The notes beneath the pieces are model-generated. The model was given only the letters and a program-made list of their open reading frames with translations. It did no database searches and was not told the origin of the DNA. Positions 6,805 through 8,469 of a stretch of 11,564 nt of DNA are shown piece by piece (within the stretch, counting starts at the first letter, position 1; each line of letters begins with the position of its first letter). Where the stretch lies: NCBI GenBank assembly GCA_027625205.1, contig JAQBVZ010000007.1, forward strand, positions 1 through 11,564, in the 5' to 3' direction. Position numbers and translations under genes: made by a program. Origin of the DNA: Chloroflexota bacterium (lineage in GTDB: Bacteria; Chloroflexota; Dehalococcoidia; Lucifugimonadales; Australimonadaceae).

Positions 6805-8469
6805 CTAACCCCTAAATATTCCTGGATTGGTGACTGCGCCCTGATTGGCCGAGGCCACGTCCCTGGCGTACTTGGCAAAGACGCCGCTGGCGTACCGGGG
6901 CGCTGGCTGCTTCCACGCCGCCCTGCGGTCCGTAAGCTCCTCTTCAGAGATGTCCACGTCCAGCCTGCGGTTGTCTATGTCCAGCACGATGGTGTCACCC
7001 TCTTTCACAAGGCCGATGTTGCCGCCGTGGAAGGCTTCAGGGGCAATGTGGCCCACCATCAGGCCACGAGTGGCCACGCTGTCACCCATGCCAGCGCCTA
7101 CGATTGCAGCGGTCACGCCAAGCATTTCACGCATGCCAGGGCCGCCTGACGGGCCTTCGTAACGGATGACCACAATGTCACCGGGGTTGATTTTGCCCGC
7201 CTGCACAGCGACAAACGCATCCTCTTCGCGGTCGAACACACGGGCGGGGCCACGGTGCTGTGTACGCTCATGCCCCGCCAGCTTCACCACGCAGCCGTCC
7301 TCCGCAAGGTTGCCCCGCAGGATGGCGAGGCCGCCGTTGGGCTTGAAAGGCTTGTCCGCCGGGGCCACCACCTGCTGGCCGGGGGTCGCTACCGCAGCCG
7401 CAGCTATCTGTCCAAAGTTCTGGCCGCTCACGTTGGCTTCGCTCACGTGAGCCATCCCCGCAGAGACCAGCTCCTTGGAGACCAGGCCGTAGCCTCCCGC
7501 GTTGTAGAGGTCCTCTGCAACGTAGTCACCGCCGGGCTTCAGGCTGGCCACCGTGGGAGTACGCTCCGCAATATCATCAAAGTCGTTTATTTCCAAAGGA
7601 ACGCCAGCCTCTCTGGCGATTGCCAGCAGGTGCAGGACAGCGTTGGTGGAGCCGCCGGTGGCAGCCACGCCCGCAATCGCGTTCTCAAAGGCCGCGCGCG
7701 TCATGATGTCCCGGGGCTTTGTGTCGTTCTTGAGCAGTTGCATTACCAACTCGCCAGCCTTGCGCGCCTCTGCCTCCTTATGCTTGCCTATTGCCGGGAC
7801 AGCGTTTGCCCCTGCCGGGCTGATGCCCAGGAATTCCAGCGCCATGGCCATGGTGTTGGCCGTGAACTGTCCGCCACATGCGCCCGCGCCGGGGCAGGCA
7901 GCGTCCTCAATCGCCTTCAGCGCGGCATCGTCTATCTTGCCTGCGCCGTGGGCGCCAACAGCCTCAAACACCTCTTGGATGGTGATGTCCTTGCCCTGGT
8001 ACTTGCCGGGGGCTATCGCGCCGTTGTAGAGCGCCAGGCCGGGGATGTTCAGACGGGCCAGTGCCATTGCGCCAGCAGGGACGGTCTTGTCACACCCCAC
8101 AATGACCACCAGGCCGTCAAAAGAATGGCCTCGTGTTACCAATTCGATTGAGTCGGTGATGACCTCACGGCTAACCAGAGAGGCTTTCATGCCCTCCGTG
8201 CCCATGGTCACGCCGTCTGACACCGAGATGGTGTTGAATTCCATGGGCGTGCCGCCCGCCGCGCGTATGCCCTCCTTGACGAACTGGGCCAGCACGCGCT
8301 GGTTGTAATTACAGGGCATGGTCTCAATCCAGGTGGTGGCCACGCCAATAATGGGCTTGGCCAGGTCCTCATCTGTGAAACCGATTGCCTTCAACATGGC
8401 CCGCGCTGGCGCCCGTGACGGGCCGTCGGTCATCTCCGCGCTGTGTCGTTTCAAGGGGTTGGTGGTCAT
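6805..8469 (-). CDS. ilvD: Dihydroxy-acid dehydratase with missing catalytic-serine loop
   Basis: The 554-residue protein is clearly IlvD, which dehydrates 2,3-dihydroxy acids to 2-oxo acids in valine, leucine and isoleucine synthesis. Cluster ligands C53 (P-C-N), C126 (G-C-D-K-T) and C198 (G-A-C-G-G) are present, as are metal-site D85 and K128, and the [11 protein letters not shown] segment (439-449). The second family signature, normally (L/V)-x-T-D-G-R-F-S-G-(G/A)-T, is absent. The chain passes from G-D-S-V-A466 straight to T467-R-G-L-M-V-G-H, so about ten residues including the catalytic serine are missing while the frame is kept (junction near 7071/7072). The rest aligns normally to the C-terminal G-V-F-A-K-Y-A segment. 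GGAG seven bases before the ATG supports the start. It appears to lead the ilvD-hicAB-tldDE unit. As written, normal catalysis is doubtful; a sequence error is an alternative. Confidence 0.93.
   Translation of the reverse strand: [554 protein letters not shown]

Follow-up and report, generated by a model that had tools for sequence, protein, structure and literature searches.

An apparent one-off loss of the proposed catalytic-serine loop from an otherwise ordinary ilvD gene of a Chloroflexota bacterium

By sequence comparison, the gene described here, from a Dehalococcoidia-like bacterium of the Chloroflexota, is an ordinary ilvD minus one 30-base stretch, and the missing stretch is the one that carries the second signature of the family. 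What has happened looks like a one-off loss in an ordinary gene, and not like a new kind of enzyme. The gene lies on a stretch of 11,564 nucleotides, called the window below; the assembly, in which this stretch is contig C5, has 250 contigs, totals 1.19 Mb, and is 60.14% complete.

The gene and the missing stretch

An open reading frame of the window, read from 8469 to 6805 on the minus strand, codes for an IlvD of 554 aa. IlvD is the dihydroxy-acid dehydratase (DHAD, EC 4.2.1.9) of the IlvD/Edd family. The features concerned are the following:

6805..8469, minus strand: ilvD, dihydroxy-acid dehydratase, 554 aa, otherwise full length (TIGR00110, NF002068, PF00920, PF24877)
8062..8094, minus strand: first IlvD/Edd signature, residues 126-136, intact (coordinates derived from residue numbers)
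7069..7074, minus strand: A466/T467 junction, where alignments place 30 missing bases (10 codons) in comparison with all tested relatives that extend over the site

In profile searches the protein scores 631.1 bits with TIGR00110, above the cut-off of 618.15 that defines membership, and 747.5 bits with NF002068, for which the cut-off is 644. Both Pfam domains are matched almost from end to end, PF00920 over positions 1-314 of 316 and PF24877 over positions 1-191 of 191. The first family signature, given in an excerpt of PMC5770437 as C-D-K-x(2)-P-[GA]-x(3)-[GA], is found at residues 126-136, as it is in 181 of 227 listed relatives, fragments among them. D127 and K128 of the CDK motif are in place, and so are the Fe-S cluster cysteines C53, C126, and C198 (shared by 119, 120, and 120 of 120 relatives, respectively).

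The anomaly lies further on, where the protein reads GMGDSVA466-T467RGLMVGH, with the codon of A466 at 7074-7072, that of T467 at 7071-7069, and the junction at 7072/7071, within the range 7042..7110 that the first-pass annotation had given. The second family signature, which in the same excerpt of PMC5770437 includes T-D-[GA]-R-x-S with the catalytic serine, is absent from the window IlvD, serine included. Eighteen solved chains were matched, and the alignments were compared for three DHADs, 6nte, 6ovt, and 8ikz: nearly their whole length aligns to the window protein (E 1.6e-166 to 1.2e-145), and each HMMER alignment shown opens a 10-residue gap at A466/T467, so that the solved enzymes carry the loop, whereas the window IlvD does not. 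In the alignment with 120 relatives, only these ten columns combine a gap in the window protein with residues in at least 90% of the other sequences, and the window protein has no private insertions. This single ten-column gap without private insertions also rules out two other readings, a pair of frameshifts and the translocation of a block.

How unusual is such a loss? In a 35-sequence alignment (A2) every residue of the lost block but its I is invariant, and the loss of all ten residues is far beyond ordinary variation. The exact placement of the gap is ambiguous because Ala occurs at both edges of the block. The first-pass annotation had described a precise in-frame loss of about ten residues with the catalytic-serine signature, between canonical flanks and with the three cluster cysteines and the CDK motif kept; the first part of this description is borne out by the HMMER gaps and by the relatives discussed below, and the second by the 120-relative alignment.

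Relatives that keep the loop

Two overlapping database searches (the best 120 of 8000 matches and the best 120 of 6077) gave 227 distinct relatives. TDGRFSG occurs in all 227 listed, and the full strict pattern of the second signature in 202 of them. The search with 6077 matches used residues 446-487, which span the junction, and among its best 120 there was no protein without the loop.

The same holds at the level of genomic loci. The motif test took in 113 of the 114 IlvD loci (L001-L114), those with a match at E 1e-20 or better; the remaining locus, probably L114, must be a short piece. TDGRFSG was found in 110 of the 113, a number that does not stand for as many independent genomes, since three loci were fetched twice (L002 = L082, L003 = L088, L004 = L090). 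The three without it are the window itself (L001) and L094 and L095, both of which are cut off by a contig edge short of the site, L094 at query residue 440 and L095 at 403; the motif is present in L113 and L112, pieces from the same two genomes. Seventeen further matches were listed without a locus, of which four are L111-L114 and the other 13 lie outside the motif test.

The nearest relatives are P0001 and P0002, which represent 2 and 7 contigs; each differs from the window IlvD by 10 substitutions in 554 aligned positions. Aligning such close relatives was the first check proposed for this gene, and its outcome is simple: both proteins are intact at the junction, where the window IlvD lacks ten residues. 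They resemble the window protein in both Pfam domains, the Fe-S cysteines, and the CDK motif, but differ from it in having the second signature with the proposed catalytic serine. In the genome-contig scan, the named relatives L002-L004 (76-80% identity) belong to Chloroflexota and Dehalococcoidia assemblies, and no relative above 80% identity was seen among the best 80 of 547. As for viral contigs, 12 stretches matched a pattern and none was confirmed as an ilvD copy; no literature was found on SAR202 together with dihydroxy-acid dehydratase.

A loss that appears in a single, incomplete assembly, while near-identical proteins and the family at large keep the loop, speaks for a sequence error or chimera (a chimeric read or an artifact of amplification or assembly) that is not fixed in the organism, and to this explanation we give an even chance. 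The same rarity weighs against the main alternative, a genuine young null allele in which the 30-base deletion is fixed or common and the cells need external branched-chain amino acids or keto acids, whose chance we put a little short of even. In favor of the null allele, the reading frame is otherwise clean and the gap is in frame; an error would be expected to keep the frame one time in three.

Age of the loss and possible origin

A gene that had been inactive for long might show decay elsewhere in the protein. The comparison used 272 columns with at least 98% conservation in 109 full-length relatives of greater distance; at these the window IlvD has 5 substitutions, compared with 5 to 7 in each of P0001-P0010. 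Eight of the columns are missing from the window IlvD through the deletion, and eight from P0005 and P0006, which are shorter proteins. Where P0001-P0004 agree, the window protein differs twice, at A420V and S542N, and each of these residues is seen in 1 of 117 full-length relatives. An old pseudogene is ruled out, as substitutions at near-invariant columns are not raised. Because there is no decay around the gap, the deletion is either very young or not in the organism; the suggestion that the loss looked recent stands insofar as constraint beside the gap is not relaxed, with the reservation that the loss may instead not be real. To that extent the intact surroundings favor an error or chimera.

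Counting columns that at least 95% of the other sequences fill, 2 of 121 aligned proteins have a private internal gap. One is the window IlvD; the other is P0113, another metagenomic IlvD, which has a private 11-residue in-frame gap elsewhere, between LLAIAR and DEIA. Because single-sequence in-frame gaps do occur in these predicted proteins, the gap in the window deserves a lower weight, and this one case among 120 aligned relatives counts for an error.

Could short repeats have produced the deletion? Most relatives have an Ala codon at both edges of the lost block. The DNA homology between the edges was compared in 15 family sequences, a set without L094 and L095 (which lack the site) and without the nearest relatives P0001-P0006; it amounts to 3 or 4 bases in 10 of them and to 0 or 1 in the other 5. 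The slippage between short repeats that had been proposed is thus weakly supported, and a microhomology-mediated deletion is possible, to judge from these edges. Homology of at most 4 bases is far shorter than the word length of an assembler, so that assembly alone would hardly make such a deletion, a point that weakens the case for an error. A read or molecule with the deletion probably existed, whether from a true deletion, from amplification, or as a chimeric read.

Consequence for the enzyme

According to the excerpt of PMC5770437, the base is proposed to be the equivalent serine, which is conserved throughout the family; in the Rhizobium L-arabinonate dehydratase it is Ser480, and a Ser480Ala mutant of that enzyme gives support. 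An alkoxide-serine mechanism is given for pentonate dehydratases in an excerpt of PMC9795676, and is proposed for DHAD in one of PMC9543379.

AlphaFold2 models of the window IlvD and of the intact P0001 differ at the same place. In P0001 a strand is predicted at 466-469, with mean pLDDT of 81 over residues 451-460 and 87 over 461-470. In the window IlvD the strand is lost, the corresponding means fall to 60 and 44, and residues 461-469 lie below 50. The P0001 model is itself weak nearby, with averages of 52 for 441-450 and 66 for 471-480, which includes most of the loop, and the contrast between the models is less clean than the 461-470 block alone suggests. The drop in confidence and the lost strand count for an error or chimera, and the weakness of the intact model in parts of the region detracts from that. 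The 30 lost bases would encode a strand of the C-terminal domain together with the TDGRFSG loop and its proposed catalytic serine. On homology, the published mechanism, and the AlphaFold2 comparison, the protein as written should be inactive as a dihydroxy-acid dehydratase, mainly because the conserved serine is lost.

One may ask whether the protein has instead been remodelled, so that the Fe-S and Mg sites are kept, another residue serves as the base, and activity is new or reduced. The intact flanks, cysteines, and CDK motif under unrelaxed constraint would suit such an enzyme, as would the retention of T467 directly after the lost block and an overall model that is still confident (mean pLDDT 84.2 and pTM 0.90, against 86.5 and 0.91 for P0001). 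Nevertheless, the strand is lost as well as the loop, local confidence falls just there, no such form occurs among the 227 listed relatives, and the full conservation of the serine and the Ser480Ala mutant of the related enzyme (excerpt of PMC5770437) also tell against it; we regard a remodelled enzyme as very improbable. That a natural IlvD could be folded and useful without the serine loop, through another base or as a non-catalytic Fe-S protein under selection, is scarcely to be expected.

Neighborhood and genome

Near ilvD lie two genes that recur in part of the family:

9101..9484, minus strand: DUF1232 protein, upstream of ilvD (PF06803, 37.8 bits)
9522..10541, plus strand: holA, DNA polymerase III delta (PF21694, PF06144)

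Among seven family loci compared, a DUF1232 match is found near ilvD in five and a holA match in four. Both are present in L119, L120, and L121 (from genomes G004, G009, and G005) and in L092; L082, on a short contig, has DUF1232 only, and L003 and L004 have neither. A neighborhood common to part of the family suggests that the ilvD copy of the window is the inherited one, and this arrangement is among the points in favor of a null allele.

The other side of the gene offers some observations of its own. Two genes in the region 6322-6797 (minus strand) likely form a HicAB toxin-antitoxin pair, between ilvD and a tldD-like gene. The first resembles HicA toxin genes (PF07927, 34.7 bits against a cut-off of 27) and has no NCBIfam match, and its protein was not matched in any of the seven family loci. 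The second, a short gene that follows it, matches UPF0150 (29.1 bits against a cut-off of 27.3) and has a HicB-like match below the cut-off. Then come, at 3171-6303 (minus strand), two adjoining PmbA/TldD metallopeptidase homologues in a tldD-tldE-like pair, and at 103-1113 (plus strand) a DUF3999 protein with an F5/8 type C stretch.

As for the rest of the pathway, a genome search had been advised for ilvC, ilvB, and ilvE. The first two were found intact, with ilvN, on another contig, and the start of leuA is intact before the contig ends; the survival of these genes favors an error over a null allele. The search for ilvE gave a less telling result: its family, PF01063, has no match in the assembly (nor has TIGR01122), and is present in all 15 other family genomes. 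At 60% completeness the missing ilvE is weak evidence of loss. It fits a true loss of the pathway as well as it fits the incompleteness, so that it counts for the null allele and detracts from an error, with the proviso that in such an assembly the lack of ilvE and of a second ilvD says little.

A second ilvD elsewhere in the genome, one of the outcomes foreseen by the first-pass annotation, is not supported, as none was found in the 60.14% complete assembly, and a degenerate TDGRF pattern gave no match to the lost block elsewhere in it. Having neither an intact copy of the site nor a motif fragment elsewhere in the assembly is in keeping with a null allele and runs counter to an error. A second intact ilvD, or an isofunctional enzyme, could lie in the unassembled part and make the window copy redundant. 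By the completeness estimate, some 40% of the genome is absent from the assembly, and a second, distant IlvD-like protein (33-36% identity) is present in G017, G020, G025, G030, and G036, from other families of the order. Within the family, however, none of the 15 other genomes has two full copies: 12 have one IlvD match (only a piece in G015), G001 and G011 each have a single IlvD split over two contigs, and G007 has one full IlvD and a 38-residue match at a contig edge. Redundancy of this kind is a most improbable explanation.

Conclusions

Taken together, we lean slightly toward a loss that is not fixed in the organism rather than a very young null allele. Real or not, the deletion would teach little about the mechanism of the enzyme. 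If it is an error, it serves as a warning that the IlvD equivalog cut-off can be passed (631.1 against 618.15 bits) by a protein without the proposed catalytic residue. If it is real, it would show that a lineage has recently given up the synthesis of branched-chain amino acids while its relatives still have ilvD, and would add slightly to what is recorded of auxotrophy among environmental bacteria.
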